This document shows positions 2,036 through 35,564 of a stretch of 38,260 nucleotides of DNA, one piece after another. The DNA is taken from IMG/VR virus record IMGVR_UViG_3300046648_000046, positions 1 through 38,260 of that record. The stretch is one strand, 5' to 3'. A model generated the notes under the pieces. The model saw nothing but the letters and a program-made list of their open reading frames with translations, did not search any database and was not told where the DNA came from. Every line of letters starts with the position of its first letter. The stretch's first letter is position 1. Made by a program: the position numbers and the translations under genes. The stretch comes from a virus.

Positions 2036-2049
2036 TACGAAAGTTCGTA
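2036..2049. promoter_or_regulatory. Palindromic operator TACGAA-AG-TTCGTA, site 1
   Basis: Perfect 6-bp arms, partly extended to AGGTACGAA/TTCGTAGGT. It lies between the MuF-like gene and the scaffold gene, inside the late head operon. One member of a genome-wide family. Confidence 0.65.
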
Positions 2050-2068
2050 GGTGCCTTGGCGGTGCGCC

Positions 2069-2977
2069 TCAGCGGAGATAGCCGTTTTTGTACAGAAGCC
2101 GGATAGCGTGGTCTCTGTCACCGTCGGCAATGCGGTAGATCTCTTCAGGCATGAGGCGGGGCGGACGCTTCTTTTTGCGCGAGCCCGTACCCACGAAGGT
2201 TGCCTGTACCGTCCGGCCGAACATCTCAACTTGGGCCATGGACTTGCGCGCGTTCACCACGCTGGAAATGTTGGCGCCATCATCAATAGCCTTGGCCCCC
2301 GCTTCCCCAAACACCTTGCGACGCTGGGCGGGGGTCATGCTGTCGAACAGGTCGCGCGAATCCAACGGGGTGGGAGTGTGCTTGCGCGTTACCGGCTCCA
2401 TCGTGCAGTCACAGCGCGGATGGCGTAGGAAGCCACTCGATACGCCGTACTCACGGCCAGCGAGGATGATGCAGCGAGAGCATGCAGGAAGCTCGACCAC
2501 GCGAATGTATGACGTGACACCCTTGTTCGCGACCATTGCGGCCTGGTCTGCCTGCCGTCCCGTATCTGCAACCACCGTCCGCACCACCATGTCAAGGAAG
2601 GCACCCGCACGGGCCATTGCGGCACGCGGGCTGAATCCTTGGCGCTGGGCTTGGATGGCGTTAGGGGCAGCGCGAGCGAGCAGGCCCATAGTGTCGCGCC
2701 CATCGGGCGTCTGCCGTGCGAACTGCTCAGGGTCAATCTCCGGGGCGCCTGCGGCTTCACGGCCGAGTAGCTCACGCATAAACGTCTGCGTGCCCTCAGC
2801 GGCGTGCAACTGCCCCGCCTGCACCATGGCCGTGACCCGGGGAAGCAACCTGCCCCATTCCCGGGCCACATCATCGGGCCGGACCTTTGCCCACTCTGCG
2901 AGCACTGCCCGCGCTGTACCGTCCGCTAGCGCTTCACGCGCCCGCTGGTGGCGTTGCGCCCTGCGACTGACCGCCAT
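2069..2977 (-). CDS. MuF-like minor capsid/head morphogenesis protein
   Basis: A 302-residue protein placed after the portal and overlapping its 3' end by 44 bp. The middle carries PACSRCIILAGREYG and, shortly after, FLRHPRCDC, the cysteine/histidine cluster typical of MuF/VG15-type head proteins. These are packaged in small numbers and act in head assembly or DNA ejection; in some actinophages they are fused to a capsid protease. No protease motif can be confirmed here. The start is ATG at 2977 with AGGGAGA upstream. Confidence 0.75.
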   Translation of the reverse strand: MAVSRRAQRHQRAREALADGTARAVLAEWAKVRPDDVAREWGRLLPRVTAMVQAGQLHAAEGTQTFMRELLGREAAGAPEIDPEQFARQTPDGRDTMGLLARAAPNAIQAQRQGFSPRAAMARAGAFLDMVVRTVVADTGRQADQAAMVANKGVTSYIRVVELPACSRCIILAGREYGVSSGFLRHPRCDCTMEPVTRKHTPTPLDSRDLFDSMTPAQRRKVFGEAGAKAIDDGANISSVVNARKSMAQVEMFGRTVQATFVGTGSRKKKRPPRLMPEEIYRIADGDRDHAIRLLYKNGYLR

Positions 2978-4430
2978 TCGTGTTGTCTCCCTGCGCTGGG
3001 TCCTGGGCCATGAGCTGAGTAAACGCGCCCATCGGATCAGCCATCAGTTCCTTTTCACGCATGCTGAGTAGGTCCACAACCTCAGTCGGCGTGAGCCCGT
3101 ACCGCAGCGCGAGGAACTCGAACGGAAACCCAATCTGCTTGAGCTTCAGCAGCGAGTCAGTGAGCTGGGAAATCGAGCGCGACTGAGCGTCAGCCCACAC
3201 CACGCGACCAGCGGTAATGGCAACCGCCTTAGCGTCGTTGCCCTGGGCCAGTGCGACCAGCGCGAACACCTCACGTAGCGCCTGCCCAAACCACAGTTGC
3301 TTTTCCTCAACCCGCTTGACCAGGCCGGTTTCCGCAGCAATCAGCGCGTCACCGGAAAGGTTGGCCATCTTCCCAACTAGGTAGTGCTGGGGGGTGCGGG
3401 TCTGAGCGGCGATGTGGCCAACGGCCGTTTCGATGATTTCCGAGTAGGCGCCAAGGTTGGCCGCTGACCATTCCTCAGTGCGGACGTTGTCACCCGTGAA
3501 GAACTGCACCCGGTCAACGGCGAACTTTTCCATGTCCACGGGGCGTTCACCCACGATGGTGCCGGAAGCGTCGAGCACCGGAACAACCGGCCGTTCAGCG
3601 CCCAGCACAATGCGAGTGGGGAACGACGCGTAGTCAGACGTTGTGAAGAGCTGCGCCCACAGGAGGTTTACCGCATCCTGCATGGCAACCACGCCGCTGA
3701 CGTCCGATATGGGATCGCCCACCAGGGTAGGCCGGTTGGGAAGCTCGACCAGCGGGACAAGGCCGAGGGGGTTGGGCTGCGGGTTAGGCTCAGCGCCCAT
3801 GTCCCGTAGGTCCCAGCGCTTCAGCTCGTCGTCAACGTCCTGCATGCCGGTTGTCTTCTGAGCGGCACCCGCACGGGCACGCTTGAACTTCCACACCTCA
3901 TCAGCGAGATAGAGCGTGGCGAAGTCGTCGGCGCCATCCTCCCAGCGCTTCAGCCCTGCGAGACGCTTCCGGCGAGAACCAGGCTGGTACGCCACGATGC
4001 ACTGTGAGGCGTCCTCGAAGGTGACCTCAGGAGTCTCGGGGTCATCCGGGTTGCCCCACACCAGCACGAAGCTACGGGCGCTGTTGACGGCACCCAGGAA
4101 GCCAAGCTGAGAGTCAGCGTCAAGGCCATTCATCTGCCAGACACGCCACGACTCACGGTCAGACTCGGTCATCCCAGCGGGCTGGACGCCGTTCACTGCG
4201 AGACGCTCTACGGGACTGTCAGAGACCACCTGCACCCAGTTGTCAGAGAACCCCTGGTAGCGCTGCCCGTGGTACTTCTTGAACTCGTCAGAGGCGAACC
4301 GTAGAGGCTGCTTGCCCCGGTAGTACTCCTCGTTACGGTCAATCTCGAAACGGCGAGAACGTAGCTCGTCCTCAAGTAGCCCGATGAGTCGTAGGGCTTC
4401 AGCCTCAGTTGCCACCGGGCCACCTTTCAT
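2934..4430 (-). CDS. Portal protein
   Basis: A 498-residue protein of the SPP1/HK97-type portal group. The N-terminus has ALRLIGLLEDELRSRRFEI followed by NEEYYRGKQPLRF, the typical opening helices. It forms the dodecameric DNA channel at one capsid vertex and docks the terminase. The ATG at 4430 overlaps the terminase stop (ATGA). A GTG at 4415, giving MATEAEALRL, has a better ribosome site (AAAGGTGG) and may be the true start. The C-terminus is glycine/glutamine-rich. Confidence 0.88.
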   Translation of the reverse strand: MKGGPVATEAEALRLIGLLEDELRSRRFEIDRNEEYYRGKQPLRFASDEFKKYHGQRYQGFSDNWVQVVSDSPVERLAVNGVQPAGMTESDRESWRVWQMNGLDADSQLGFLGAVNSARSFVLVWGNPDDPETPEVTFEDASQCIVAYQPGSRRKRLAGLKRWEDGADDFATLYLADEVWKFKRARAGAAQKTTGMQDVDDELKRWDLRDMGAEPNPQPNPLGLVPLVELPNRPTLVGDPISDVSGVVAMQDAVNLLWAQLFTTSDYASFPTRIVLGAERPVVPVLDASGTIVGERPVDMEKFAVDRVQFFTGDNVRTEEWSAANLGAYSEIIETAVGHIAAQTRTPQHYLVGKMANLSGDALIAAETGLVKRVEEKQLWFGQALREVFALVALAQGNDAKAVAITAGRVVWADAQSRSISQLTDSLLKLKQIGFPFEFLALRYGLTPTEVVDLLSMREKELMADPMGAFTQLMAQDPAQGDNTNGGQSQGATPPAGA

Positions 4431-6025
4431 GCTCCGTAGTAGTAGGACTTGCGCTTAGGTGCAGCCATGCCAGCGGCTACGGCGTCCATCGCAGCTTCGT
4501 GCGTGAGGATCGAGGTAACCGCAACGTCGATCTTTTGGTCTTGCGCTGCCTTGGCCAGCACGTAACGGCCCTGCGGTCGAGCGGCTGCACGGGCATTACG
4601 CATGTGGCCGGACGTGATCGGGCACCCGTCGTGACTGAACGTGGTGTCAGCCTTGGCTATGTCCGTCTTCAGCCGTTCCGCAGCAGCGTGCATCTGCACA
4701 ACTCGGCGCGTGTACCAGCTAATTACGACCCGGTCCCCGTACTGCGCTGCCCACTGGTCTACCTCAGAGTCCCAATAGGGCGGGTCAGCGTAGAGGAGCT
4801 TGACGTCATAGCGGGTCATCAACTCGTCCAGCGCTGCGGAGACTTCCAACCGGGGGACTTGCCCACCGTAATCAGCGGGATTCCAGATGGTTGGTAGTCG
4901 GTTAGGGCCGAACGTCGGCGTGAACTGGAAACCGTCCAGCGTCTCAGCGCGAAAGGCCGTCCAGTCGTCAACGTCGGAACCATCGAACCCCAGGACAACC
5001 GGGGTCTTGGGCGCTACGCTGCGTGCCGAATTGGCCCGAGCCTCCCACAGATTGTGTTCAAGCCATGCACCAGCACCAGCCACAATGCGGTTACCGAAGA
5101 ACCGCTCAGCCTGCGCAGGGTCCGTCTCGGCTAGTTCGCTGGCCTCAGCCTCGATAGCGTCTAGGTCGATGTGCGGACAGTCACAGTAGACAGCCTTGTG
5201 AATCTTCCGGCGCTCTTGCTTGTTGCGGTAGCTCAGGTTCAAGGGCGCTTGCGGGAAGTACCGGTAAACGTCCTCAGCCTTGCTCTCGTGCGTGCGCTTA
5301 GCCGTCGACTCCTCGGAAGGGTCGTATGCGTTGGTCGTCTCCATCGAGCGCCCGGACATACCAGCGAGACCACGGCGCATCGTCTCAGCAACCTTGATCA
5401 TCTTGTTGGTTGCCGTATACGTGCCTGTCTCGTCCTGAATGGCGAACGTGATTGGGTTACCGAGTCGCGATTGCGCGGAGCTGGTGACTACGTCTATTCG
5501 CCCCTCATCGCCTACGCGTATGAACCCCTCACGCACGCTCATGATGGCGCCTAGTGACCCGTGCTTGACCATGGCAGTCAGCGGCCGGTAGACGTTCGCC
5601 ACCTGGTCTTCAGACGTCGCTAGAAGCTGAATCAGCGGGGTGGGCTGAGGCACGGCCATAGGCTCGCCCGGGGCGTACTCGTAGGACCACCCGCAGGGGC
5701 AACCCCAATCCTTGCACCGGAAGCGCTCAGGACCCTCAGCAAACCCGCTGAAGACAGTAGGACCAGCAGCCTCGGCAAGCACGATCGCAGCAGCGAAAGG
5801 GCCCTTGCCCGACTTCTGCGACATGATGACCTGCGCACGCCGGTAGACAAACGCTGTGGAGCGCTGCCCTACCTCTGCGTCAGCACGCACCGTGTAGAAG
5901 TGACTGGCTACTTTCAGTTGCCACGGCAGGAACTCGAACGGCTCACCCTGACGGAATCCGTCCGGGATGACTGCATGCGACTCAATCCACGCGAGAGTGA
6001 CGACCAAGGGTGTCCCCTCAGCCAT
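4427..6025 (-). CDS. Terminase large subunit
   Basis: A 532-residue packaging motor. The Walker A-like loop is SQKSGKG near residue 70 and the Walker B-like segment is FAIQDETG near residue 198. The nuclease half has LGFDGSDVDDW near 345, DPPYWDSEVDQW, and KIDVAVTSILTHEAAMDAV near the end, giving the acidic residues of the RNase H-like fold. It pumps DNA into the head and cuts concatemers, working with the small subunit just upstream (8-bp overlap) and the portal downstream. Confidence 0.92.
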   Translation of the reverse strand: MAEGTPLVVTLAWIESHAVIPDGFRQGEPFEFLPWQLKVASHFYTVRADAEVGQRSTAFVYRRAQVIMSQKSGKGPFAAAIVLAEAAGPTVFSGFAEGPERFRCKDWGCPCGWSYEYAPGEPMAVPQPTPLIQLLATSEDQVANVYRPLTAMVKHGSLGAIMSVREGFIRVGDEGRIDVVTSSAQSRLGNPITFAIQDETGTYTATNKMIKVAETMRRGLAGMSGRSMETTNAYDPSEESTAKRTHESKAEDVYRYFPQAPLNLSYRNKQERRKIHKAVYCDCPHIDLDAIEAEASELAETDPAQAERFFGNRIVAGAGAWLEHNLWEARANSARSVAPKTPVVLGFDGSDVDDWTAFRAETLDGFQFTPTFGPNRLPTIWNPADYGGQVPRLEVSAALDELMTRYDVKLLYADPPYWDSEVDQWAAQYGDRVVISWYTRRVVQMHAAAERLKTDIAKADTTFSHDGCPITSGHMRNARAAARPQGRYVLAKAAQDQKIDVAVTSILTHEAAMDAVAAGMAAPKRKSYYYGA

Positions 6026-6485
6026 CCTGTACCGCCTTCAAACGGGCAGTCAGGGAAGCCACAGGGGAGACAGCGGATAGGGTCGTTGTCTGCTCGTCGT
6101 CGGCGTCAACCTTGGCAATGGTCCACTTGTTGCGCTGCATGCCGCTGACCGAAAGGCCGAGCGACTCGGCGAACTGCTTGACCTGACCCCACACGATGGC
6201 GGAGGAGCGCGGAGACTCAGCGCGAACGAGCAAGCGCACGTAGGACGCTACCTCGAAGTCCTGGTGTAGCTGCTCCCACATGACAGCCTGCGGAGTCTCC
6301 CAGAGACGTTCCCAGATCTGAAGCTCACGGGGTGTAGCCATGTCCAGCGGGAAGGCTGGTTCAGCTCCGTCCCTTCCCTCAGCGGGTAGGGTCGTCCATC
6401 CCTGGGCGTCAGCCTTGGCCTTGTGGCTCCGGTCAGTGCTGGTCGGCGCAGGGCCGGACCGAGCACGAGCACCACCCTTGGCCAT
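6018..6485 (-). CDS. Terminase small subunit
   Basis: A 155-residue protein directly before the large terminase, overlapping it by 8 bp. The start is set at ATG 6485, eight bases after GGAGG; GTG at 6494 is a weaker alternative. The first 25 residues are basic (AKGGARARSGPAPT), a common feature of phage small terminases, followed by a helical region around VASYVRLLVRAESPRSSAI. It should recognise the packaging site; the repeat-rich DNA just upstream (6495-6677) is a candidate target. Confidence 0.75.
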   Translation of the reverse strand: MAKGGARARSGPAPTSTDRSHKAKADAQGWTTLPAEGRDGAEPAFPLDMATPRELQIWERLWETPQAVMWEQLHQDFEVASYVRLLVRAESPRSSAIVWGQVKQFAESLGLSVSGMQRNKWTIAKVDADDEQTTTLSAVSPVASLTARLKAVQDG

Positions 6486-6494
6486 GGTCATCAC

Positions 6495-6677: not shown

Positions 6678-7040
6678 CTAACCTCGATCGTTCCAACCAC
6701 CAGGTTGATTGCGTGCAGTCTCTCGGGAGTGGTGAGCCTTGGTCATCGCCCTGAGGTTCGACCAGTCGTAGCCACGTGGACCCAGCGGACCGAGCCCATC
6801 TATGTGGTCAACCTCTGTGGCCACAGGCTTCAGCGGAACAGGCAGCGCATCACACTCTGTGCACTCACAGTAGGGATGCTCTCTCAGGAAGCGTGCCCGT
6901 GTCCGTTGCCAGGTTGACCCATACCCCTTGCGCTGGGCACTGCGCCGGGCAACCCCCGCCCTTGCCCTACACTCCGGGCATCGTCCAGCGGGGTAGACCA
7001 GATTGGGACACCCCGGGGTCGAGCAGACGCTACGAGCCAT
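6678..7040 (-). CDS. HNH endonuclease beside terminase
   Basis: A 120-residue protein. Two cysteine pairs (CSTPGCPN, CPEC) in the first 30 residues are followed by the HNH core: YCECTEC near residue 57, TEVDHIDGLGP near 75, and NLRAMTKAHHSRETA near 95-110. HNH proteins next to the terminase genes assist cohesive-end cleavage in HK97-like phages; the position supports that role here and hints at a cos packaging mode. The start is ATG at 7040, after AGAGG. Confidence 0.85.
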   Translation of the reverse strand: MARSVCSTPGCPNLVYPAGRCPECRARAGVARRSAQRKGYGSTWQRTRARFLREHPYCECTECDALPVPLKPVATEVDHIDGLGPLGPRGYDWSNLRAMTKAHHSRETARNQPGGWNDRG

Positions 7041-7053
7041 GGGGGGTACCTCT

Positions 7054-7067
7054 TACGAAAGTTCGTA
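7054..7067. promoter_or_regulatory. Palindromic operator TACGAA-AG-TTCGTA, site 2
   Basis: Perfect 6-bp arms, 14 bp before the HNH start codon and just after the stop of the small membrane protein. A bound protein would cover the HNH ribosome binding site. Confidence 0.65.
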
Positions 7068-7078
7068 GGTGACTGCCC

Positions 7079-7315: not shown

Positions 7316-7334
7316 GCGACCACCTTTCTATGAG

Positions 7335-7408
7335 TGCGGGTAGAGGGATTCGAACCCCCGGCTTCCTGGTCCCAAACCAGGCGCCCTAACCAACTGGGCC
7401 ATACCCAC
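7335..7408 (-). tRNA. tRNA-Pro (UGG)
   Basis: Cloverleaf read on the minus strand: acceptor GTGGGTA/TACCCGC, anticodon arm CCTGG-TTTGGGA-CCAGG with anticodon TGG, T-arm with GGTTCGAATCC. No 3' CCA is encoded. It would read CCA, a rare proline codon in high-GC hosts. 74 nt. Confidence 0.9.
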
Positions 7409-7412
7409 GTTG

Positions 7413-7494
7413 TCCGCTGAGAGGGACTCGAACCCCCACGCCCGAAGGCAACGCGTTCTAAGCGCGCCGTGTCTCGCCATTCCACCACCAGCGG
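7413..7494 (-). tRNA. tRNA-Leu (UAG)
   Basis: Acceptor CCGCTGG/TCAGCGG, anticodon loop CTTAGAA (anticodon TAG), a long variable arm containing TTGCCTTCGGGC typical of tRNA-Leu, and T-arm GGGGGTTCGAGTCCC. It reads CUA, a rare leucine codon in Streptomyces. 82 nt, 4 bp from tRNA-Pro. Confidence 0.88.
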
Positions 7495-7498
7495 GTAA

Positions 7499-7577
7499 GC
7501 GGTGCGCCCTGGTTTCGCTTGGCAGGCTTTCCGGGGATCACCCAGGGCTCACGGCCAGAGGCTTCTAGACACACCGC
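7499..7577 (-). ncRNA. tRNA-sized structured element, not a cloverleaf
   Basis: Minus-strand ends GCGGTGTG and CGCACCGC pair over eight positions (one G-T). Inside, GCCCTGG and CCAGGGC form a perfect 7-bp stem enclosing a long loop. It is the size of a tRNA and sits between two tRNA genes, but has no T-arm or anticodon arm. It may be a processing spacer or a small structured RNA. Confidence 0.35.
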
Positions 7578-7580
7578 TAG

Positions 7581-7651
7581 TTGGTACGGCAGGGATCGAA
7601 CCTGCGCACATTGGGTAGCGACCCCTTGCTCTGCCGCTGAGCTACGTACCA
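7581..7651 (-). tRNA. tRNA-like gene, anticodon uncertain
   Basis: Good acceptor (TGGTACG/CGTACCA), D-arm (GCTC-AGCGGCA-GAGC) and T-arm (GCAGG-TTCGATC-CCTGC). The anticodon stem is poor: only three G-C pairs, with A-A mismatches outside. Position-based reading gives loop GTCGCTA and anticodon CGC (Ala), but base 26 would be missing. It may be a degenerate gene. Confidence 0.6.
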
Positions 7652-7654
7652 AAG

Positions 7655-7727
7655 TGCCGAGCGATGGACTCGAACCACCAACCTCCGGAGCTTCACACCG
7701 GCGCTCTACCACTTGAGCTAGCAAGGC
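7655..7727 (-). tRNA. tRNA-Phe (GAA), weak acceptor stem
   Basis: D-arm GCTC/GAGC, anticodon loop GTGAAGC (anticodon GAA) and T-arm GGTGG-TTCGAGT-CCATC are clear. The acceptor stem has two mismatches in the middle (GCCTTGC against GCTCGGC) and the anticodon stem a T-T mismatch, so the gene may be decaying. First of the cluster after the upstream box at 7852. Confidence 0.65.
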
Positions 7728-7730
7728 TTG

Positions 7731-7870: not shown

Positions 7871-7892
7871 TCGTTAGGCTGGCTAAGTACCC

Positions 7893-8130: not shown

Positions 8131-8135
8131 GTGAC

Positions 8136-9521
8136 TTAGCTCACTGCGTCACGGTCCCCCAGGTACTCGACTAGTGCTTGATCGTCGCCCCCGATGGCCC
8201 ATGAGACGTCGAGCCGATCCGCGCGCTGTTTGGGGTGGAGTACAACGTGTAGGCCAACGTCAGCGAGCAACCGGCCACGTTCCCCCGGGGAAGCCTCCCA
8301 AGCCTCCCCCAGCGTCCTCCCAGTGGGCTCAAGCACCTCTCTTACATCTGGGTCGTGGGAGGCCCGTAGAGCGGCGTACGTGGCTTCCAGCTCCTCAGCC
8401 ATGCTTTCCAGCGTCGTCAACATGAGCGGTCCGGCCGTAGCCATCTTGTGCGCGAGTCTCTGCGCTTGCTCCTGTGCTTCCGCCATCTGGTCTGACAGGT
8501 CGTTACCCCCTTCGAGCCTGACGACGTGCTCAGCGAACGAGCCGAAGCGCTCAAGGAACTCGTCCGTAACCCGCTGGTCGAGGGTCTCGGCGTATATGGT
8601 CACGTGCCCTTGCTTGCACTTGTAGAGGCGCACGCCCGTGCCACTGGCCCCGCCGTTCAGGTGGGTCTCACAGCGATAGCACCAGGCCAGACCGAAGCAC
8701 ATGGGGGAGGCACTGCGCGGGGCGCGATCCTGGCCCGTGGCGAGAGCCTCTAGCCGTTGCTCGATGGCGATTGCCTCAGCGGCCCCGATGATCTGCTCAG
8801 CGAAGCGCAGGGGTGTGATGCCGTCCTCTTCTAGGACTAGGGCGCCCTTGTGGCTGCGCAGGCCCCGGAGCGTGGGGGACTTGAGCAACCGGCGCCACTG
8901 AGGCTCGCTCACGCCGACCATGCGCGCTGTAGAGGCAACTGAGCCATCGTCGAGGAGCTTTCGCACGGCTGTTCTAATCTGCGCTGCCTGCTCCTCGTCG
9001 ATCTCCAGATACGCAGCACCATCCCGCCGAACGGTCCTGTAGCCGTATGGCGGCCTCCCAGCGCCCCAACGGCCCTGAGCCCTACGTGTGGCGTGTCCGT
9101 CGCTGATACGACCCCTGATGAGTTCTCGTTCCCACTCAGCGAGAGCGGCGAGCACCACAGCGACCATGCGCCCCGTGGGACTGGCCGTGTTGATCGTGTT
9201 GTCCGTCGTGGCCACCCGGACGTTATGAGCCTCACCCCATGCGACGAGCCGCAGGAACTCACTCACGCTGCGCGCGTACCGGTCGAGCTTCCACGCGATC
9301 ACAACGGCCGGACGATCCGCCATGAGCGCTCGCATGCCCTTGCGTGCTTCCAGGGGCTTGGCGCCGCTCACGCCAGCGTCTACGTACTCCACAGCGTCGT
9401 CAGGGTCGTAGCCGTTGGACTTCAGCCACTCACGCGCTGCTCGTCGCTGGGTCTCGATGCTCGCTGAGTCGTCGTTCTCTCGGCTGAGCCTGATGTATAT
9501 GGCGACCTTGACTGTCCTCAT
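8136..9521 (-). CDS. int: Large serine recombinase (phage integrase)
   Basis: A 461-residue site-specific recombinase. The resolvase domain starts at VAIYIRLSREN, where Ser13 is the expected nucleophile; YVDAGVSGAKPLEARKGM, WKLDRYARS and the helix GRMVAVVLAALAEWERELIRGRI follow. The recombinase DNA-binding domain starts near GAGRPPYGY. A zinc ribbon is seen around residues 285-320 (CYRC...YKCKQGH), and a coiled coil (DLSDQMAEAQEQAQRLAHK) follows it. It should integrate the phage at attP x attB. ATG 9521 is the first start in the frame and has only a weak ribosome site. The start lies inside the candidate attP, so integration would separate the gene from its phage promoter. Confidence 0.95.
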   Translation of the reverse strand: MRTVKVAIYIRLSRENDDSASIETQRRAAREWLKSNGYDPDDAVEYVDAGVSGAKPLEARKGMRALMADRPAVVIAWKLDRYARSVSEFLRLVAWGEAHNVRVATTDNTINTASPTGRMVAVVLAALAEWERELIRGRISDGHATRRAQGRWGAGRPPYGYRTVRRDGAAYLEIDEEQAAQIRTAVRKLLDDGSVASTARMVGVSEPQWRRLLKSPTLRGLRSHKGALVLEEDGITPLRFAEQIIGAAEAIAIEQRLEALATGQDRAPRSASPMCFGLAWCYRCETHLNGGASGTGVRLYKCKQGHVTIYAETLDQRVTDEFLERFGSFAEHVVRLEGGNDLSDQMAEAQEQAQRLAHKMATAGPLMLTTLESMAEELEATYAALRASHDPDVREVLEPTGRTLGEAWEASPGERGRLLADVGLHVVLHPKQRADRLDVSWAIGGDDQALVEYLGDRDAVS

Positions 9522-10961: not shown

Positions 10962-10991
10962 ATCATAGGCATGCCGAAACCCTGAGCGCAA
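10962..10991 (-). promoter_or_regulatory. Sigma70-type promoter TTGCGC-18-TATGAT
   Basis: -35 at 10986-10991, -10 at 10962-10967, spacer exactly 18 bp. It lies just inside the operator palindrome and about 30 bp before the start codon of the 66-aa gene. Confidence 0.65.
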
Positions 10992-10996
10992 CCACC

Positions 10997-11010
10997 TACG
11001 AAAATTCGTA
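10997..11010. promoter_or_regulatory. Palindromic operator TACGAA-AA-TTCGTA, site 3
   Basis: Perfect arms with CACC/GTG-type flanks. It lies 6 bp upstream of a -35 element, where a bound repressor would block RNA polymerase. Confidence 0.7.
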
Positions 11011-11028
11011 TGTGACCTGCGTCTCTGA

Positions 11029-11704: not shown

Positions 11705-11734
11705 ACACTAGGGTCCCCGGAGCGCCCCGCGCAA
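11705..11734 (-). promoter_or_regulatory. Sigma70-type promoter TTGCGC-18-TAGTGT
   Basis: -35 at 11729-11734, -10 at 11705-11710, spacer 18 bp, downstream of operator site 4 and about 40 bp before the gene at 11668. Confidence 0.6.
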
Positions 11735-11740
11735 GGCACC

Positions 11741-11754
11741 TACGAATTTTCGTA
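11741..11754. promoter_or_regulatory. Palindromic operator TACGAA-TT-TTCGTA, site 4
   Basis: Perfect arms, 6 bp upstream of the -35 element of the next promoter; same geometry as site 3. Confidence 0.7.
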
Positions 11755-11769
11755 TGTGAGCCACAACAC

Positions 11770-12721: not shown

Positions 12722-12751
12722 ACAGTACCCACCCACCTACGAAAAACGCAA
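12722..12751 (-). promoter_or_regulatory. Sigma70-type promoter TTGCGT-18-TACTGT
   Basis: -35 at 12746-12751, -10 at 12722-12727, spacer 18 bp. A half operator (TTCGTAGGTG, about 12734-12743) falls inside the spacer, and the -35 overlaps the end of the deaminase gene. Confidence 0.55.
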
Positions 12752-14314: not shown

Positions 14315-14341
14315 AGTCTCTCCTACGTACGAGGGGCCACC

Positions 14342-14355
14342 TACGAACTTTCGTA
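14342..14355. promoter_or_regulatory. Palindromic operator TACGAA-CT-TTCGTA, site 6
   Basis: Perfect arms inside a longer stem (GGGGTCATC/GTGGCCCC with G-T pairs), 28 bp before the thyX start. The longer stem could also act as a terminator. Confidence 0.65.
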
Positions 14356-14381
14356 GATGACCCCCAGGGATGAGCGGTAGC

Positions 14382-14994: not shown

Positions 14995-15490
14995 GTACGC
15001 CTGCGTCAACGCGCTGGGCTTTCCGCCACTGGGTGAGGTAGTCGTGTGCCTGCGTGGTGTGCCTCTGCCTGTACTCGCGTACGCGTTCCGGATTCGCTCG
15101 GCGCCATTCACGTTGGTACCCCTTACGGCGCTGCGCGTCTTCCTGGTAGTACGTCGCGAGATGCTCTCTGTGCGTGTCACGCCAGAGCTGGGAGGCAGCG
15201 TTACGGGCGACTCGGTTCCGCAGGTTGTATCGTCGCTGGCTTGCCCGGATTCGGGCCTTGCGCTCGTAGGCGGTCCGCTTGCGCTCCCTGTGATCCTCGG
15301 GGGCTTCCCAGTAGCGCTCACGGACTTTGTCTTTCTGCTTGTCCGGATCAGCGGCGTACGCGTCCCGGAGCTTGGCCCTGGTGCAGTCCTTGCACTTGGC
15401 CCGGCGTCCGTCCTTGCGTCGCTTGTCCGTGTGGAATGCGGGGAGGCTCTTGACCTCCCCACACTCCGTACAGGCTTTCGCCTCGATCAC
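14972..15490 (-). pseudogene. HNH endonuclease, N-terminal half
   Basis: A 172-residue frame starting MIEAKACTECGEVKSLPAFH with a CxxC...CKDC zinc-knuckle pair, then long basic repeats (RERYWEAPEDHRERK, REWRRANPERVREYRQ) as in phage HNH proteins that read DNA with repeated helices. It stops at 14972, before the HNH core, which continues in the +1 frame. Its ATG overlaps the stop of the sigma-like gene (ATGA). A sequencing error at about 14975-15010 would also explain the split. Confidence 0.7.
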
Positions 15491-16593
15491 TTGCGTCCGC
15501 CCCGGGAAAGGTTCGAGGCAGCAGCCTCGTTCAGCGTGATGGCCTCAGCCTCGCTACCGGCCGCAAGGGCGATGTAGTACTTAGTGAAGCTCTTGAAAGC
15601 CTTGGTCCGGCTGACTCGCACGGCGTTGACCTGAAGCCCGAGCAGCTCCGCCAACCCGTCGTTGTCGCACCCGTCACCGTGGCCGAAGAACACAGCGCCA
15701 TCGATACCGAACGTGTGCTTGAGGACCGTGCGCTGACCCTCGCCCATCTTGTCGAGTGCAGCGCGAACCATGCCGATCTTCGCCGCCCGCTCGTCGCGCC
15801 GCTCGTCGGACACGTCCCGCAGTTCCTCGGCAAGGTCACCATCCGTGGCAGTGCTGACGTAGCTACGCAGGATCGCGATGGAGTCGAGCACGTACCGGCG
15901 AACCGTTTCGTCACGGGGCACGGTGAGGGTGTCCTCGATCGCGTCAACGTCCTCAGGCTTCACGGGGAGGGCCGAGAGAACCGATCGGGCGGACGAGTAC
16001 CGCTGAAGCACCGCGAGAGCTTCCAGGGCGGCACCGTGGCCCACCTTCGGCTGAACCTTGGGGGTCTCGTCGACCACGGCCAGCGTGTCAGCGAGCGAGG
16101 CGCCCTCGTTCTCGTCGTCGTTGCCCTTGTCGATGGACACGGCACCCTGCCAAGCGAGGCGAGCAGCGTCCGCCCGGTCCGCGCTGAGTCGCTCACCCTT
16201 GGGGAGGGCAGTAGCGAGCTTGGCAGCCTTGTACGGGTCTCCCTCGGCGTCACCCAGGACAGACATGAACGTCTTGACAGCGTCCTTGTCCACCCCTACG
16301 TAGCGCTGCTCGCGGACACGGTCCTTGAGGACTTCAGCAATCGTCGTGTACAGGAAGCCAAGGAAGCCGTCCACGGGGTCCCCGCTGACCTTGTCAAGGT
16401 CGTACCGGGGCAGGGCCAGGAAGAGAGCCTCTCGGGCGTCCTGCTCGAAGTCTTCCCGCAGGTTGCCATCTATTCGGCGTGCAGCCTGAGCAGCGAGGCG
16501 GGACACCCGCTCTTCCATCTCAGCGAGTACGGCCGTGATCCCGGCAAGGTCGTTGGTCTGGGCCGAACGGATCTGGGCAACGGTGAGAGACAT
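15487..16593 (-). CDS. Phage sigma-like RNA polymerase factor
   Basis: A 368-residue protein. Residues about 48-95 (DFEQDAREALFLALPRYDL ... FLGFLYTTIAEVLKDRVREQRY) match sigma70 region 2, which binds core polymerase and the -10 DNA. Residues about 280-345 (AALDKMGEGQRTVLKHTFGI ... LAELLGLQVNAVRVSRTKAF) match region 4 with its helix-turn-helix. The middle is acidic and unusual. It could direct host polymerase to the eight GGTAATCG boxes, one of which (box C) lies 36 bp before its own start, suggesting autoregulation. ATG 16593, ribosome site AAGGAG inside a hairpin. Confidence 0.75.
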   Translation of the reverse strand: MSLTVAQIRSAQTNDLAGITAVLAEMEERVSRLAAQAARRIDGNLREDFEQDAREALFLALPRYDLDKVSGDPVDGFLGFLYTTIAEVLKDRVREQRYVGVDKDAVKTFMSVLGDAEGDPYKAAKLATALPKGERLSADRADAARLAWQGAVSIDKGNDDENEGASLADTLAVVDETPKVQPKVGHGAALEALAVLQRYSSARSVLSALPVKPEDVDAIEDTLTVPRDETVRRYVLDSIAILRSYVSTATDGDLAEELRDVSDERRDERAAKIGMVRAALDKMGEGQRTVLKHTFGIDGAVFFGHGDGCDNDGLAELLGLQVNAVRVSRTKAFKSFTKYYIALAAGSEAEAITLNEAAASNLSRGGRK

Positions 16594-16647: not shown

Positions 16648-16975
16648 TGGGAGTCCGGCCGGTTTTGAGCGCTGCGGGGCAACGCCAAGGAACAGACGAA
16701 CACCCTGGGTGGGTGGTCTGCGGTTCGAGCCTCCGGCCGGATGGCTCGTCTTCGCTGAGGAGAGTTCTACGTGATTTTTCGTAGGTGGTGCAAGGTCCTT
16801 TCGTACGTGACTGCCTATTAGACCAGCTACTACCGGACATCGTTGTAGAGGATTCGAAGGCGTTACCCGGGTTCATCCCTTGGAAGTAGCGGGTTTGGCA
16901 TATGCGAACGTGGGCGTTAGCTGCGAATGCCTGTGTTTGCAGTGACAACATGTGGGCTGCACCACAACGACGAGA
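16648..16975. other. Non-coding stretch between DNA polymerase and sigma-like gene
   Basis: Over 300 bp without a convincing gene. It holds an imperfect operator (16768-16783), a half operator near 16799-16808 and box C at its end. A 143-residue open frame crossing it overlaps the sigma-like gene and has no convincing ribosome site or coding features. Confidence 0.5.
16768..16783. promoter_or_regulatory. Imperfect palindromic operator, site 7
   Basis: TACGTGATTTTTCGTA with CTAC/GTAGGTGGTG flanks: one arm degenerate, centre two bases longer. A right half-site TTTCGTACGTG follows at about 16799-16808. Confidence 0.45.
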
Positions 16976-18895: not shown

Positions 18896-18924
18896 GGCCA
18901 CCTACGAACTTTCGTAGGTGGCCC
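18895..18924. promoter_or_regulatory. Palindromic operator site 9 in a long perfect hairpin
   Basis: Core TACGAA-CT-TTCGTA (18903-18916) extended to GGGGCCACC/GGTGGCCCC, followed on the minus strand by TTTG. It could be both an operator and a two-way terminator, 36 bp before the polymerase start. Confidence 0.7.
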
Positions 18925-22085: not shown

Positions 22086-22095
22086 CGGTTCCTCC

Positions 22096-22109
22096 TACGA
22101 AAGTTCGTA
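22096..22109. promoter_or_regulatory. Palindromic operator TACGAA-AG-TTCGTA, site 10
   Basis: Perfect arms, 11 bp before the TTG start of the 59-aa gene; its right arm touches AGGAGG. Confidence 0.7.
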
Positions 22110-22120
22110 CGTGGTGAAAC

Positions 22121-23326: not shown

Positions 23327-24052
23327 TTAGCGCTCCTCGCCGATCGCGTCGTTGTAGGAACCGAGCACCGTGATAACCGGCTTGCGGTAACTCACGTCAA
23401 TGCCAGCCTTGTTGGTGTACTGGACGTGCTCCAACTCCAGTCGGCAGAGCGCCTCACCGTCGACCCGGTCAAGGGCGTCCTTGACCTCATGGACAACCTC
23501 AGCGAGAGACCAGGCGGTAGCGATCAGCTTTCCGGCGCCCAGCTCGTAGCCGTGGCCAGCGAGACGGAACGTGACGTTGATCGAGGGGGACGGACCACGC
23601 CGACGCTTGGCAAGGTCCTTGCGCTCAGACATGGTGCGCGGGCAACCGCAAGGCTGGCCCTTGTCCTCCGCAGGCGACAGGAAGAACTCACCGTCACACT
23701 CATGGACCGGACCGCCCGGACCCCACAGGATGAGCTTGTCTTCCACAGCCTTCGAACCGTTGATCACGATCTCGACCGAGTCAGACTCAGTCATGACGTG
23801 AAGGTTCATGTTCTTGGTCGGGTCGTACTCCTCGGGCGTACCACCGAGCAGCTCAGCGATACCGTCCGCCACCGTCGGATCGTCGGTCAGCACACGCCAG
23901 TTGGCGAGACTCACCGGCTCCATACGGCGCGTGTCAGGGTTGCGCACCTGCATGCCAGAGCGGAACTGGAAGGTGGGGCGCTCGTACTCAACCTTGGCGG
24001 TACGCGGCTTGGGCTTGGCGTCAGGGTCGGTGTCGAAGATGCGCAGGGCCAT
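23327..24052 (-). CDS. Putative recombination directionality factor (phiC31 gp3-like)
   Basis: A 241-residue protein starting MALRIFDTDPDAKPKPRTAK. The pattern ANWRVLTDDPTVADGIAELLGGTPEEYD, then a cysteine cluster (HECDGEFF ... GQPCGCP, about residues 117-137) and PSINVTFRLAGHGYELGAGK, recalls the gp3-like actinophage family, whose phiC31 member switches the serine integrase from integration to excision. The pairing with a serine integrase in this genome fits. From memory of the family, not a search. It lies downstream of box F and a large hairpin. Confidence 0.7.
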   Translation of the reverse strand: MALRIFDTDPDAKPKPRTAKVEYERPTFQFRSGMQVRNPDTRRMEPVSLANWRVLTDDPTVADGIAELLGGTPEEYDPTKNMNLHVMTESDSVEIVINGSKAVEDKLILWGPGGPVHECDGEFFLSPAEDKGQPCGCPRTMSERKDLAKRRRGPSPSINVTFRLAGHGYELGAGKLIATAWSLAEVVHEVKDALDRVDGEALCRLELEHVQYTNKAGIDVSYRKPVITVLGSYNDAIGEER

Positions 24053-26547: not shown

Positions 26548-26577
26548 AGACTAGGTGCCAGCGCGCCCAACTGTCAA
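26548..26577 (-). promoter_or_regulatory. Sigma70-type promoter TTGACA-18-TAGTCT
   Basis: Perfect -35 at 26572-26577, -10 at 26548-26553, spacer 18 bp, about 30 bp of leader before ATG 26512. The best host-type promoter in the genome, so probably an immediate early promoter. Confidence 0.75.
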
Positions 26578-26583
26578 ACCACA

Positions 26584-26597
26584 TACGAAAGTTCGTA
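26584..26597. promoter_or_regulatory. Palindromic operator TACGAA-AG-TTCGTA, site 11
   Basis: Perfect arms, 6 bp upstream of the -35 element, in the same position as at sites 3 and 4. Confidence 0.75.
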
Positions 26598-26609
26598 GGT
26601 GCAGAAACA

Positions 26610-27705: not shown

Positions 27706-28632
27706 TTACGACACGACTAGGAAGCCATGCCGGTTGCCCAGCTTGGTCAGCGACACGAACCCGGGAATCCCGTCAGCGTCCGCGCCCCTGTATCCAAGCT
27801 TGGTTTGCCACTTGCGGTACGCGGCTATGGTCGTAGTGCCCCAACTCCCGTCGCTGGCATAAGCCTTGGCTAGGTAGCCCTCAGCACGTAGCGCAGCCTC
27901 GACCAGCTTCACGCCGGACGCGTACGTCTGGTGACCCTGCCTAGCTCCGGGGTCAGTCTTCGCAGCCTTGACCAGGTTGGACAGGTCTACCTTGGGCTTG
28001 GGCTTGGGCTTAGCCGCAGGCGCAGGCTTGGGCGCAGGCTTAGCAGGCGCAGGCACGGCCACAGGAGCAGCAGCGAACAGCGCAGCCTTGTTGATGGCGC
28101 CCGGGTCCCAGTGGTCGTTACCGGGAACGTTGCTGTGTCCGTAGTGGCCAGCCTTGTTGGTCCAGATATCGCGGCTACGCTTCGCAGCGCTGTCCCCGTA
28201 CTTGCTCGCGAGCGCACCCATGGGGAAGACGTCCGGCACACCCCACGAACGGATAGCAGCCATGAGCGCGCGGAAGTTCGGGCCCGGCTTCCAGTACCCG
28301 GTAAACGGCGTACCGGCGCGGGCCAGTACCTCAATCTGTATGCAGACCTTGCCCGTACGGTTCGTGCGCGTGGCGCCATCGTTCTTGAGCGCGCGGGCAG
28401 ACTTGTCGAGCGGGCCGAACTGCCCGAGCCTGTCAGTCGTCGGGTCGTACAGGAAGTGAGGCTCAGCGCCAATGGTGCGCAGGTACTTGCCTACGGCGTC
28501 GAACGCAGCGTTACCGGCGCCCGATTCGGTCGTGTGCCAGACCACGCGGGGTGGCTTGCCCGGGGTGTCCATGGCTCCGCCGATGGTGCCTGCCCCGAGA
28601 CGCTCAGCGCCGGAAATCCAAACGGTACCCAA
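27706..28632 (-). CDS. Endolysin: N-acetylmuramoyl-L-alanine amidase with PG-binding domain
   Basis: A 308-residue lysin. Amidase domain with His33 in RVVWHTTESG, and GHYGHSNVPGNDHWDPGAI near 165-180, giving the zinc ligands of the amidase_2 fold. A proline/lysine/alanine-rich linker (about 190-220, PAPAKPAPKPAPAAKPKPKP) leads to a C-terminal peptidoglycan-binding domain (AYRKWQTKLGYRGADADGIPG). It cuts the host wall at the end of the lytic cycle. The start is TTG 28632, set by AGAAGGAG; the longer open frame upstream is not supported. Confidence 0.9.
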   Translation of the reverse strand: MGTVWISGAERLGAGTIGGAMDTPGKPPRVVWHTTESGAGNAAFDAVGKYLRTIGAEPHFLYDPTTDRLGQFGPLDKSARALKNDGATRTNRTGKVCIQIEVLARAGTPFTGYWKPGPNFRALMAAIRSWGVPDVFPMGALASKYGDSAAKRSRDIWTNKAGHYGHSNVPGNDHWDPGAINKAALFAAAPVAVPAPAKPAPKPAPAAKPKPKPKVDLSNLVKAAKTDPGARQGHQTYASGVKLVEAALRAEGYLAKAYASDGSWGTTTIAAYRKWQTKLGYRGADADGIPGFVSLTKLGNRHGFLVVS

Positions 28633-28690
28633 GTGCTTTGCTCCTTCTGTGAAAGGCGGGCAGGGCAGCGCGAAGCATGCCCCACCCACC

Positions 28691-28704
28691 TACGAATTTT
28701 CGTA
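28691..28704. promoter_or_regulatory. Palindromic operator TACGAA-TT-TTCGTA, site 12
   Basis: Perfect arms directly after the stop of the last tail gene and 59 bp before the endolysin start. Confidence 0.7.
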
Positions 28705-28708
28705 CGTG

Positions 28709-28966: not shown

Positions 28967-28969
28967 CAG

Positions 28970-29461: not shown

Positions 29462-29469
29462 GACCCTCC

Positions 29470-32400: not shown

Positions 32401-33345
32401 ACCCACGAAACGCGTACGCCGGTTAGTGATGGCTGCACCAACACCCACGGTCCACACGCGCGAGGCAGAGTCCGTGAAGCTCGTAGTATTCGCTGCCTGC
32501 ACCTCAAAGTTCGGGGAGGCCACAACGGTGCCATCAATCCCTGAACGGACCTCAGCGCGGTAACAGCGGCCCGTGAAGGGGTACCGCAGTACCGTGATGC
32601 CAGAGTCAAGCTGCTGAGGCGAGACACTCAGCGGCGCCGTACTGTCGAAAATGGCGAACGTGCCGGAGCTGACACCATCGCCACCAAAGTTGATCCACGG
32701 GCCATCCATGGACTCAGCCCAGTAGAACCGCGAGGTAGCACCACCGGCGCCGTTGTCGACGTCGAACGTGGTACGCAGGGCAATGCGCTTGGGCAGGTTC
32801 TCGGGTAGGGCCATGCTCGAAACACGGCCCACCGTTCCATCCTGCGTGGTGTGGATGTACAGCGCGCGGTTCTCTAGGCGCATGTGGTACGACCGGTTAC
32901 CCGCTGCACCCCACTTGCCTATGAGCATCTGGGCGCCGGAAGCGTACCAATCCGCCTCGCCCTCCCAGCGGATATCAATGTCACCCGTGATCTTGACCGG
33001 AGCAGCGTCCGGCGTGGTCGTCAGGTCGGGGGCGCCTGACAGGTTGTCAAGGAACACCCCACCTTCGAGCACGCTGACCCGTAGCGGAGTGTTCCGGCCG
33101 AACTTGCCGTAGAGATCACTGCGGGGATTGCGAGGCGAGTAACGTCCCACAATCCCCGTCAGCTTCGAGGTTCCATTGTTCAGGGTCAACCGGCAAGAGC
33201 CGGGGTCGACCACTGCCCCTTCGTCCGCCTTACCACGCGTGATGACAACCGGGTCTCGGTTGTACACGTCAGCGGAAATGTTCTGCCACACGCCGTTGAT
33301 CTCTAGCTCTGTGACAATCTTCAGCGGATCGGTGGGGAACCCCAT
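29470..33345 (-). CDS. Giant minor tail protein with carbohydrate-binding-like modules
   Basis: A 1291-residue protein following the tape measure, in the place where separate distal tail and tail-associated genes normally lie. The N-terminal part (ITRGKADEGAVVDPGSCRLTL) has the opening of actinophage tail proteins. Two concanavalin/LamG-like stretches follow (about 100-290 and 360-560). A central part resembles a tail hub (about 590-850). A CBM4/9-like module (PNPWLRDDASSW ... TVPANTWTWFEATFTAP) covers about 900-1050, and another jelly-roll-like domain (KDTFTRSVSNGWGTSDFG) the end. Likely the tail tip and main receptor-binding protein. Domain borders are estimates. Confidence 0.75.
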   Translation of the reverse strand: MGFPTDPLKIVTELEINGVWQNISADVYNRDPVVITRGKADEGAVVDPGSCRLTLNNGTSKLTGIVGRYSPRNPRSDLYGKFGRNTPLRVSVLEGGVFLDNLSGAPDLTTTPDAAPVKITGDIDIRWEGEADWYASGAQMLIGKWGAAGNRSYHMRLENRALYIHTTQDGTVGRVSSMALPENLPKRIALRTTFDVDNGAGGATSRFYWAESMDGPWINFGGDGVSSGTFAIFDSTAPLSVSPQQLDSGITVLRYPFTGRCYRAEVRSGIDGTVVASPNFEVQAANTTSFTDSASRVWTVGVGAAITNRRTRFVGEVSEWPTRWEAEGSDGYVPLVASGIMRRLGQGQKALDSTLRRRIPSFKPLSYWPMEEGQTATQAINLGTSTSPLKVSPVNWAAVDTLPSSSPLPTIKSAAGALTQLYGAVPAPATPPTSWTVQFIYRMDTINPTVRTYMRVISTGTLAEWYLQWGTGVAHVIGKDADGVQIFDHATAIGTDLWGQWIRVQLTVNQNGANVDYQLIWQDVGGDAGAGSGTFAGTIGRPVAVASPPDGYSSDLDGLALGHISAWGSWLDGKANSAYSGAIDGWAGETAGNRMIRLSGEEALPLLIQDGANDHAQVGPQYPETLMTTIQDAADADGGILYENREDIGLKFRGRAGFYNQPVQLELDFNARGLISPVEPIDDDQLIRNDRTIERRNGGSAQAILETGTLSVQNPPLGVGTYDDSTTLNLYNDEQTDQTAWWYLRMGTVDEARYPSIAVDLARAPGLISSAADVEVGDRLTIVNPPEWMPPGTIDQKVEGYQETLSLASWSIEYNCTPHSVYNVGTIDGRNEGWDQTPSLGKADTDGTTLYEDLTTGETQVDVTVTNGPMWVQAQPVLTPNPWLRDDASSWNGSGGTVARVPAPQSPSDSAWALQFTPNGVASTPNAYSTRVTGVVTGAQYVVSGWVRCARTRSVGLNLNWYTGTNYTSTSGNTLTVPANTWTWFEATFTAPASVDGMSIAATVGSNPPATDVILVQGATIRPVLGSVNMPYEFPFSVSTGGEELRVTAIQSMKDTFTRSVSNGWGTSDFGNAWTVHGTSASSEYDVNGTTGRHNVSTKNSFHITSMDGLSRTDSELLVKTTVPVVPTGDAIYAYCLLRTDSAVNSYYFARLFFSSNAATAELSIRKRTPSETLLATAASTMVHSAGQAYYVRFNVTGSTISAKAWRTQDSEPDAWQVTATDTDLPAAGGVGIRTFVQTANTNTLPISFAFDDLELVGAQRMTTERSINGVVKTHNPGQPISLTHPAIVAL

Positions 33346-33355
33346 TGCGTACCTC

Positions 33356-35197
33356 CTATCGAGTGGCTATCTGCGAGAAACCACGTCCGTCAACACGGAA
33401 CAGCTTTCGGACTAGCCGCTTCATTTCCTCGTCCGAACCAGTCACATCTAGGCGGATGTTCTGGTTTACGCGAGCGCTCGCAGTAGCAGCGATGCCGCGC
33501 GCTTCCCATTCGGTCGTAACCGGCAGGGAGTGAGTCAGCCCCTTTAGCTGCTTACGCAGGTGTGGAATCTGCTTCTTGATACCGCGCTGGAAACCGGCGA
33601 TGACCATTCGGCCGTTAGGCGTCAGGATCTTCTTGTCAAGGGGCGCAGGTCCCTTCCAGCTAGTCAGCTTGGACGTAAGACCACCAAGGGTGGACTTGAC
33701 CGACCCAAACATGTTCTTGATTCCGTTAATGAATCCGGAGATCAGAGACTTACCGGCGCCCCACAGGACACCGCCCAGCGAGCCCAGAGCCGACTTAGCC
33801 TTGCCCGGAAGGGACTTGACAAAGTCAACCGCAGACCGGACGCCATCCCGCGCAGCGTTGGCCATCCGAGTACCGCCCGCCTTCATGGCAGACCACAGCT
33901 TGCCCGCAAGCGGAGCGATGGCCGAACCAATCTTGCCCGGTAGGTCTCGGAAGATGGACATCACGAAACTCGCCATGCCCCTAACAACCTGCTTGGCCAT
34001 ATCCATTGCACCGCTGAAGTCACCCTGAAGTAGCTTCGCGATCATCTGGATAGCGGGCACAACCACCGAAGTGATGTACTTCGCAAGGTAGTTGGCAAAG
34101 ATCGTTGCGAGCTGACCGACAAGCGCAATGATCGGGGTCAGAATCGGAACGAGCGCCTGTACAACCTGGCCCAGCGCACCAAACAGCGGAACGAGCGCAG
34201 CGAGGATCGGCGTAAGCGCAGGCAGCAGAGCAACGACGAGTTGCATGATCGGAGGAATCAGCGGCATGACCGCCTGCACCAGCGCGAGGAACGCCGTAAC
34301 AACTCCGTCGAGCACCGGACCCAGCGCAGCAATAACCGGCATGAGAGCGGAGCCCAGTTGCGCGATGATCGGCCCAAGTGCCTGTAGCAGCTTGGAAATT
34401 ACCGGTCCAGCGAACTGGAGTATCTGCCCGAGGAGCTGACCCAGCACCGGAAGGATTCCGCCAATGGCGCCGAAGAATGAACTCAGCACTCCCCCGGCCT
34501 GCCCGATTCCGCTGGACAGTCCGCTGAAGAGTCCGCCGAGACCCTGCCCCAGTGAGCCGAGACCCTGCGCGAGCCCATCAACCACGGGACCCGCATTCTT
34601 CATGACAGCCTGAAAGCCGGGCATGATGCCCTTGACCAGCTCACCAAGACCAGCCACAAGGGGCTGAATCATCGGCGCAGCCTGCTTGAACATGTCCCCC
34701 AGGGCAGGGGCGATACTGTCGAAGATGCCGCCTAGCTGCTTGGCTGCGTCAGCGAGGGGCTTGACCAGTGGCTGAGCGAGACTCTGCATGGTCTTGGAAA
34801 CGTGATCCTTGAGCCCAGAGAACGCGCTCTGAACCTGCTTGTTCTGTGCGGCAGCAGCCACACCCATACCGACCATCGCCAGAGGTACAGCAGCGATGGC
34901 ACCAGCCGCAGCGACTGCACCACCCGCAATCCCTGCGAACCCCAGTAGCGCAGGCTTAACGCTCTTGCTCGCCACTGTACCCATCGAGCTGAAAGCGGAG
35001 CCCATGCGGGTCTGAATACTCGAAGCTACGCCAGAAATCCGGGGACCCAGCGAGCGGAACGCAGAGTCAACCCGGCGCCCCACCCGCTCAGCTTCAGTGC
35101 GGATCGTCTCAAGCCTGCGGGCTGCGGCGCGTACGCCCCGGTCCAGTCGGTCAGTGTCGATGCCGAGTGCCACAGTCAGCGAAGCGAGAGTGGCCAC
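33356..35197 (-). CDS. Tape measure protein
   Basis: A 613-residue protein. A coiled-coil N-terminus (RGVRAAARRLETIRTEAERV), a long hydrophobic helical middle with glycine/proline repeats (GELVKGIMPGFQAVMKN, LVVALLPALTPILAALVPL) and a C-terminal SSLGG/KSLPGKAKSAL region are typical of tape measures. It sets tail length; at about 1.5 angstrom per residue the tail would be roughly 90 nm. The start is GTG 35197, after GAGAGGGGG. It follows the frameshifted chaperone genes as expected. Confidence 0.9.
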   Translation of the reverse strand: MATLASLTVALGIDTDRLDRGVRAAARRLETIRTEAERVGRRVDSAFRSLGPRISGVASSIQTRMGSAFSSMGTVASKSVKPALLGFAGIAGGAVAAAGAIAAVPLAMVGMGVAAAAQNKQVQSAFSGLKDHVSKTMQSLAQPLVKPLADAAKQLGGIFDSIAPALGDMFKQAAPMIQPLVAGLGELVKGIMPGFQAVMKNAGPVVDGLAQGLGSLGQGLGGLFSGLSSGIGQAGGVLSSFFGAIGGILPVLGQLLGQILQFAGPVISKLLQALGPIIAQLGSALMPVIAALGPVLDGVVTAFLALVQAVMPLIPPIMQLVVALLPALTPILAALVPLFGALGQVVQALVPILTPIIALVGQLATIFANYLAKYITSVVVPAIQMIAKLLQGDFSGAMDMAKQVVRGMASFVMSIFRDLPGKIGSAIAPLAGKLWSAMKAGGTRMANAARDGVRSAVDFVKSLPGKAKSALGSLGGVLWGAGKSLISGFINGIKNMFGSVKSTLGGLTSKLTSWKGPAPLDKKILTPNGRMVIAGFQRGIKKQIPHLRKQLKGLTHSLPVTTEWEARGIAATASARVNQNIRLDVTGSDEEMKRLVRKLFRVDGRGFSQIATR

Positions 35198-35222
35198 AGG
35201 ACACCCCCTCTCGGTAGGTCAC

Positions 35223-35564
35223 CTACGAATTTTCGTATGCGCGGACGTCGCCGCCCAAAGCAGAGTTCGTCTTCAAAACTTCCTGCCAGATTTCCTCTGG
35301 GGTCTTATCGCGCTTAAACCACACCGGGACAAAGTCCTTGGCCTTGAGCTTGGCGCCCTGCGCGTTGGCCACCGTGGCAGCGATGATGCCTGCCTGGTAG
35401 TCGGCGCGGAGACGCTCGTCAAGGGGGCCGGTCACCCGCTCGTACGCCATCCATTCGGTTAGTTCCCGGGAAGACGTACGGGCGAGCAACTCGGCTACAG
35501 GTATGCGCAGATGACTGGCAAGACGGAAGTAGAACTGTCGCTCTGGGCGGCCTACTAGTTTCCC
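35223..35564 (-). CDS. Tail assembly chaperone, -1 frameshift extension (gpT-like)
   Basis: This frame has no well-placed start; the -1 slip at GGGAAAC joins it to the chaperone. After the slip it reads GKLVGRPERQFYFRLASHL, then ELLARTSSRELTEWMAYERV, and ends AYENS. The fused product is about 232 residues (121 + 111). As in lambda gpG/gpGT, the short and long forms together guide tail tube assembly on the tape measure. Confidence 0.85.
   Translation of the reverse strand, partial: GKLVGRPERQFYFRLASHLRIPVAELLARTSSRELTEWMAYERVTGPLDERLRADYQAGIIAATVANAQGAKLKAKDFVPVWFKRDKTPEEIWQEVLKTNSALGGDVRAYENS
35224..35237. promoter_or_regulatory. Palindromic operator TACGAA-TT-TTCGTA, site 13
   Basis: Perfect arms. 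It encodes the last residues YENS and the stop of the chaperone extension, and lies 27 bp before the tape measure start. A rare case of the palindrome inside coding DNA. Confidence 0.65.

Follow-up and report, generated by a model that had tools for sequence, protein, structure and literature searches.

The window, by which we mean the whole 38,260-nucleotide stretch analysed here, is a phiC31-like Streptomyces phage related to Dubu, Rowa, phiSASD1 and the phiC31 group; its genes lie on the minus strand and the coding fraction is ~0.86 (Table 1). Capsid genes at one end and connector genes at the other suggest, from gene order, that the contig is circularly permuted. Besides exonuclease and endolysin genes, it encodes a serine integrase and a recombination directionality factor, so that the phage is temperate; a scan of sequenced genome contigs found no prophage relatives in host genomes. 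Four phage tRNA genes (Pro, Leu, Ala, Phe) occupy 7334-7727, between the integrase and an HNH gene.

Ten perfect copies of the palindrome TACGAA-NN-TTCGTA had been noted in a preliminary description of this DNA, spread over early and late regions, and all ten are present at the positions given there. With 12 specified bases, ~0.001 copies of TACGAANNTTCGTA would be expected, and none arose in 300 Markov simulations; if up to three mismatches are allowed, the window has 17 matches, where shuffled sequences have 5.5 +/- 2.5. Read on the coding (minus) strand, the full site is 22 bp long, CACNTACGAANNTTCGTANGTG. Every copy (10/10) departs from it at one base or none, and any other place in the window at five or more. 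Distances of up to 175 bp to the start codon had been given; with likely starts picked by ribosome-binding site, which makes the distances approximate, they become 10-72 bp on the minus strand, and, given such starts for ThyX, for the endolysin and for the ORF that overlaps 35224, no site falls within a gene and all ten lie in intergenic gaps. Dispersal through the non-coding gaps of a whole genome might equally be the mark of a mobile or repetitive element, or of a replication or packaging signal, with no regulatory role; that reading is highly improbable given that the sites keep particular gene boundaries across divergent phages and a fixed offset to promoters (see below), while outside the 22 bp the flanks of the copies are entirely different.

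Table 1. Operators, half-site elements and genes of the window, with the half-operators of the eleven operator types.
Feature	Position	Strand	Remarks
Operator CACCTACGAACTTTCGTACCTG	2032..2053	-	35 bp before gene 1353-2000 (scaffold position in relatives); kept there in 8 genomes
Operator	7050..7071	-	13 bp before HNH gene 6678-7040; gene-order position of phiC31 CIR 41033
Serine integrase	8136..9521	-	Basis for temperate life style
Operator 10993-11014 and promoter-like TTGCGC-18-TATGAT downstream	10962..11014	-	
Operator 11737-11758 and promoter-like TTGCGC-18-TAGTGT downstream	11705..11758	-	Terminator-like hairpin just upstream, 11803-11774
Single half-site TTCGTAGGTG after T-run	12734..12743	-	Conserved in G001 and G025
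Operator	14338..14359	-	27 bp to likely TTG start of ThyX; position of Vash and Shawty CIRs
phiC31 gp12-like protein, sigma-factor-like	15487..16593	-	phrog_15865, E=2.4e-102; downstream of half-site tandem
Half-site tandem, CACGTACGAA 16800-16809 and CACCTACGAA 16778-16787	16764..16809	-	22 bp apart, direct repeat
Operator	18899..18920	-	Between primase and DNA polymerase I, 35 bp to start; position of phiC31 CIR 27544
Operator	22092..22113	-	10 bp before phiC31 gp5-like gene; terminator-like hairpin just upstream; position of phiC31 CIR 24365
Gp3-like recombination directionality factor	23327..24052	-	PF18897
phiC31 c-family repressor, 389 aa	25343..26512	-	Phage_Repressor_c PF25746, E=1.6e-73, 248 bits against a cut-off of 27
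Operator 26580-26601 and repressor-gene promoter TTGACA-18-TAGTCT	26548..26601	-	Position of phiC31 CIR 19202
Operator	28687..28708	-	58 bp before likely endolysin start; position of phiC31 CIR 17011
Operator	35220..35241	-	26 bp before gene 33356-35197 (tape-measure position)
Half-operator, window			CACcTACGAAa
Half-operator, G042			CACcTACCAAa
Half-operator, G014			CACcTACCGAt
Half-operator, Rowa			CACCT(A/C)CG(A/G)Aa
Half-operator, AbbeyMikolon			CACCACCTCAC; combines the window's outer CACC with phiC31 inner TCAC
Half-operator, Shady			CACCTAGTAAC
Half-operator, Shaeky			CACCCCTTAAC
Half-operator, Sycamore			CACCCCTTGAC
Half-operator, phiC31 type			AGCCTACTCAC
Half-operator, Sebastisaurus			AGCCTACTCTT
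Half-operator, Dubu			AGGCGACTCAA

One of the ten sites stands before the repressor gene, in the order operator, promoter, start codon, and an operator on the repressor's own promoter leads us to infer that the protein would regulate its own synthesis. The ORF has a second in-frame start, Met61 at ~26332, with the ribosome-binding site GAGGGAGA; phiC31 c is known for several in-frame forms. Homologues in three related viral genomes (G022, G004 and G036) start near Met61 and lack the N-terminal module. This cysteine-rich module (residues 1-60) is swapped among phages, the window's being phiC31-like (60%) and that of G001 Shawty-like. By tblastn the repressor matches Rowa (41% identity over 99%, the closest repressor of an isolated phage), phiBT1, Shawty, Vash, Lilbooboo, Dubu, AbbeyMikolon and the N-terminus of phiC31 c (60%). 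Its predicted fold is mostly helical and of modest confidence (mean pLDDT 72, pTM 0.42); compared with the PDB at E<=0.001 it has no match, and so none to a known DNA-binding structure, and its only viral structure matches are proteins of Shawty, Vash and Nesbitt. Column co-variation was also considered as a pointer to the recognition helix; the top co-varying columns mostly divide two large clades, and we therefore claim no recognition residue.

The preliminary description had compared the sites to the phiC31 conserved inverted repeats (CIRs) as dispersed repressor operators, and this comparison is supported. Given the c-family repressor, the operator on its own promoter, the common site boundaries and the same 22-bp frame, the likeness goes beyond resemblance and amounts to homology. 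The phiC31 c protein reportedly binds the CIRs, from work by M. Smith and colleagues in the 1990s. A de novo search for over-represented palindromes recovers the phiC31 CIR (CCTACTCACGTGAGTAGG, returned as TACTCANNTGAGTA), with 15 copies in phiC31, 16 in phiBT1, 15 in Vash and 14 in Shawty; the copy before phiC31 c (19202) is the 'inverted repeat B/B'' annotated in GenBank X12865, the coordinates of which were converted by hand. Five window boundaries, judged equivalent by orthology of the gene downstream of each site, also carry a CIR in phiC31 or in Vash and Shawty: those of the endolysin, the repressor, the gp5-like gene, the polymerase and ThyX. The HNH-gene site matches phiC31 CIR 41033 by gene order only, and for the remaining window sites no phiC31-type counterpart was shown. 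Like phiC31 and phiBT1 (Lomovskayavirus), the window combines a homologous PF25746 repressor and the same gene order with 10-16 dispersed intergenic sites, a site at the repressor promoter and an in-frame internal start. The inner half-site nevertheless differs, TACGAAN in the window and TACTCAC in phiC31; the phiC31 core TACTCACGTGAGTA is absent as a window operator, and the frame and outer bases alone are in common. Since phages with clear c homologues (AbbeyMikolon, Shady, Sebastisaurus) likewise differ in core, the core difference can be read as specificity within the family, which supports a probable new sequence specificity of the known phiC31-type system. Judged from the sequence, the ten sites are very probably operators to which the phage's own repressor, of the phiC31 c family, would bind; the lack of a structural match to a DNA-binding protein and the seven sites with no visible promoter (see below) count against this.

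The position of the sites relative to promoters is consistent with this function. A sigma70-like promoter, taken as TTG... at a fixed 5-6 bp from the site and TA...T 17-18 bp further, follows 12 of the 56 distinct sites in ten genomes of the group, against 0.05% of random positions; in the window this is seen at 10997, 11741 and 26584, and no such promoter is visible directly downstream of the other seven of the ten. The sites at 11741 and 22096 are each immediately preceded by a terminator-like hairpin, and a third such hairpin lies upstream of 10997. The repressor would occupy the 22-bp quasi-palindrome as a dimer, or as a larger oligomer. At its own promoter and the early ones, the operator immediately precedes the -35 box, with its centre near -50, and as the operator ends just before that box, RNA polymerase would be hindered by a dimer bound there. 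The seven other sites lack a visible promoter, so that a roadblock or some unrecognised phage promoter has to be assumed; bound repressor may there obstruct read-through in the manner of a stoperator, or may cover a phage-specific promoter. In a lysogen each transcription unit would in this way be shut separately, leaving the whole virus silent.

A site just upstream of a -35 box would suit an activator too, and another phage regulator, the gp12 sigma-like protein (the gene for which is present in all close relatives) or a late activator, could bind the palindromes and activate lytic genes. Such an activator would, however, also sit on the repressor's own promoter and at sites without visible promoters, and the homologous phiC31 repeats are known from prior work to be repressor sites. 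The distribution of the site across genomes bears on the same choice. A scan of viral contigs found the site in 95 stretches; PF25746 is encoded in 11 of the 12 viral records of at least 15 kb with at least two sites, the exception being a 17.6-kb fragment (G006), and in 6 of the 14 single-site records of at least 15 kb. In contigs with a single site and no repressor the centre is often a different one, such as CC, AC, GC or CA, and these are probably chance sites. In phiSASD1, where a search for a c homologue found none, only two perfect copies of the operator of its relative Dubu are retained, which argues against an activator, but Dubu itself has few copies of its operator, so that these relics weigh little in favour of the link between repeat and repressor. 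Repressor distance follows operator distance (Spearman 0.76; 0.65 among representatives), and in partial correlations with operator distance the repressor reaches 0.60 and the polymerase 0.55. The polymerase thus tracks the operator nearly as well, as an activator reading would allow; co-variation alone cannot single out the repressor, and we do not accept it as proof. Taking these points together, an activator appears unlikely, and we retain the repressor as the protein that would bind the sites.

The operator is less symmetric than it looks. The two central bases, said to vary freely, do not: they are AG/CT at six window sites and AA/TT at the other four, and A-R or Y-T (AA, AG, TT or CT) in 55 of the 56 distinct sites of the group, with one self-complementary centre where 19.5 would be expected. 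As for the reported extension to CACC...GGTG, CAC and GTG are indeed conserved, but the base adjoining the core is mostly canonical on one side only; pairing between the two flank bases is seen at 5 of 56 sites, below the 20.5 expected, and left C and right G are mutually exclusive (Fisher p=1e-8). Read along the A-R strand, 41 of 55 sites have a canonical right flank and 17 a canonical left one. When only distinct states are counted within each orthologous gap, the exclusion holds (p=3e-5) and the coupling is weaker (23:10, p=0.035), with flips in about half of the gaps that hold several sites. Centre polarity runs with transcription at 20 sites and against it at 35, so there is no fixed orientation. 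The G042 operators show the same polarity pattern with one exception, and those of Rowa are openly polar. A constrained centre and flanks that avoid pairing together give the operator a hidden polarity, in contrast to the phiC31-type CIR, which is fully symmetric with a CG centre and a paired flank, where the window has an AA/AG centre, an unpaired flank and polarity.

These flanks also speak to the idea that the palindromes act as RNA hairpins in transcripts, controlling translation or serving in RNA processing. As a 22-nt transcript, a site with full pairing has a folding energy of -12.9 kcal/mol, and start codons are near, yet most copies fold at -3 to -6 kcal/mol only, and pairing next to the core is avoided, the opposite of a conserved stem. 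At early promoters the sites lie upstream of the likely transcription start, no compensatory core change occurs within the group and half-sites are conserved at some places, all of which leaves hairpins with very little credibility compared with DNA operators. Avoidance of an RNA hairpin (-12.9 vs ~-6 kcal/mol) could nevertheless account for the flank, but not for the centre.

Half-sites form a second kind of element. The supposed imperfect copy at 16768 is not an imperfect palindrome, and the half-site listed at 16800 is not separate from it: the two make up one direct-repeat element, the tandem of Table 1. The other half-site that had been claimed, at about 12738, is real and conserved. Ahead of the sigma-like gene lies a promoter-like TTGCAC-18-TAGAAC, the -35 of which (TTGCAC) is bracketed by the tandem, and the pair of half-sites is conserved in G001 (28196-28227, minus-strand coordinates), G002 (15410), G003 (6307) and G025 (9325); one half-site is found at this gene in G022, G036 and G037. 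Full palindromes were never found before the sigma-like gene in the window or in G001, G002, G003 and G025, whereas the corresponding gap of phiC31, phiBT1 and Vash holds two full CIRs. Half-site operators could place the sigma-like gene under weaker or differently cooperative control. We put forward tentatively, and with more doubt than confidence, that the operator is a disguised asymmetric site, in which A-R centre and GGTG flank are coupled, symmetric combinations are selected against and orthologues have flipped both; taken with the half-site tandem, this would mean that the c-family repressor binds as a polar complex and recognises two or more operator geometries, in contrast to the symmetric CIR of phiC31.

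Eleven operator types, the window's and ten others, fall into one 22-bp frame and form a graded series (Table 1); as the seeds were hand-picked from blind searches, consensus letters at weak positions are approximate. Rowa (immunity repressor gp26) has 17 sites CACCTNCGNANNTNCGNAGGTG, one base per half off the window's, against 0-1 in controls; they were missed by the perfect-palindrome search and recovered by a degenerate scan, are not annotated in the record as far as shown and, unlike those of the window, are overtly asymmetric, with half-sites TCCGAA and TACGGA. G041 and G042, the repressors of which have diverged (46-51% identity), have TACCAA in place of TACGAA. G014 has three copies of TACCGA and, ahead of terminase-side and scaffold genes, two of TACGAA, which suggests mosaic exchange of operators. 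Separately, a 12.9-kb viral fragment (G038) carries four fully palindromic AACGTACGAATATTCGTACGTT-like sites (2928, 5224, 8680 and 10814) and has no PF25746 match; these are possibly the convergent site of a different regulator. Dubu also contains six GGAGAG-N3-CTCTCC inverted repeats (6733, 21395, 21452, 24657, 27178 and 31015), more than its CIR-like sites.

The likeness to L5 stoperators that had also been proposed holds for the working principle, many dispersed repressor sites of which some lie at promoters and most do not, but fails for repressor family and site orientation. L5 sites are 13 bp long and oriented with transcription, while those of the window are 22-bp quasi-palindromes of no fixed orientation; for an L5-family repressor in the window, Pfam matched only PF25746 and no mycobacteriophage was among the tblastn hits. 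Because the repressor matched the phiC31 family alone, we limit the likeness to the working principle. In the L5 group (cluster A), site sequence differs between immunity groups (PMC6550527). The Streptomyces phage R4 has a repressor-stoperator system (PMC10276819) and, by description, resembles the window in its repressor gene between lysis and early genes and its multiple intergenic sites; R4 is absent from the tblastn hits of the window repressor.

With eleven operator types beside homologous repressors in a fixed frame, the immunity specificity code of phiC31-type phages becomes directly testable. Heteroimmunity among these phages can be predicted from the series, which also offers orthogonal pairs of repressor and operator as tools for Streptomyces, and the hidden polarity poses a concrete puzzle, that of a dimer reading a near-palindrome.
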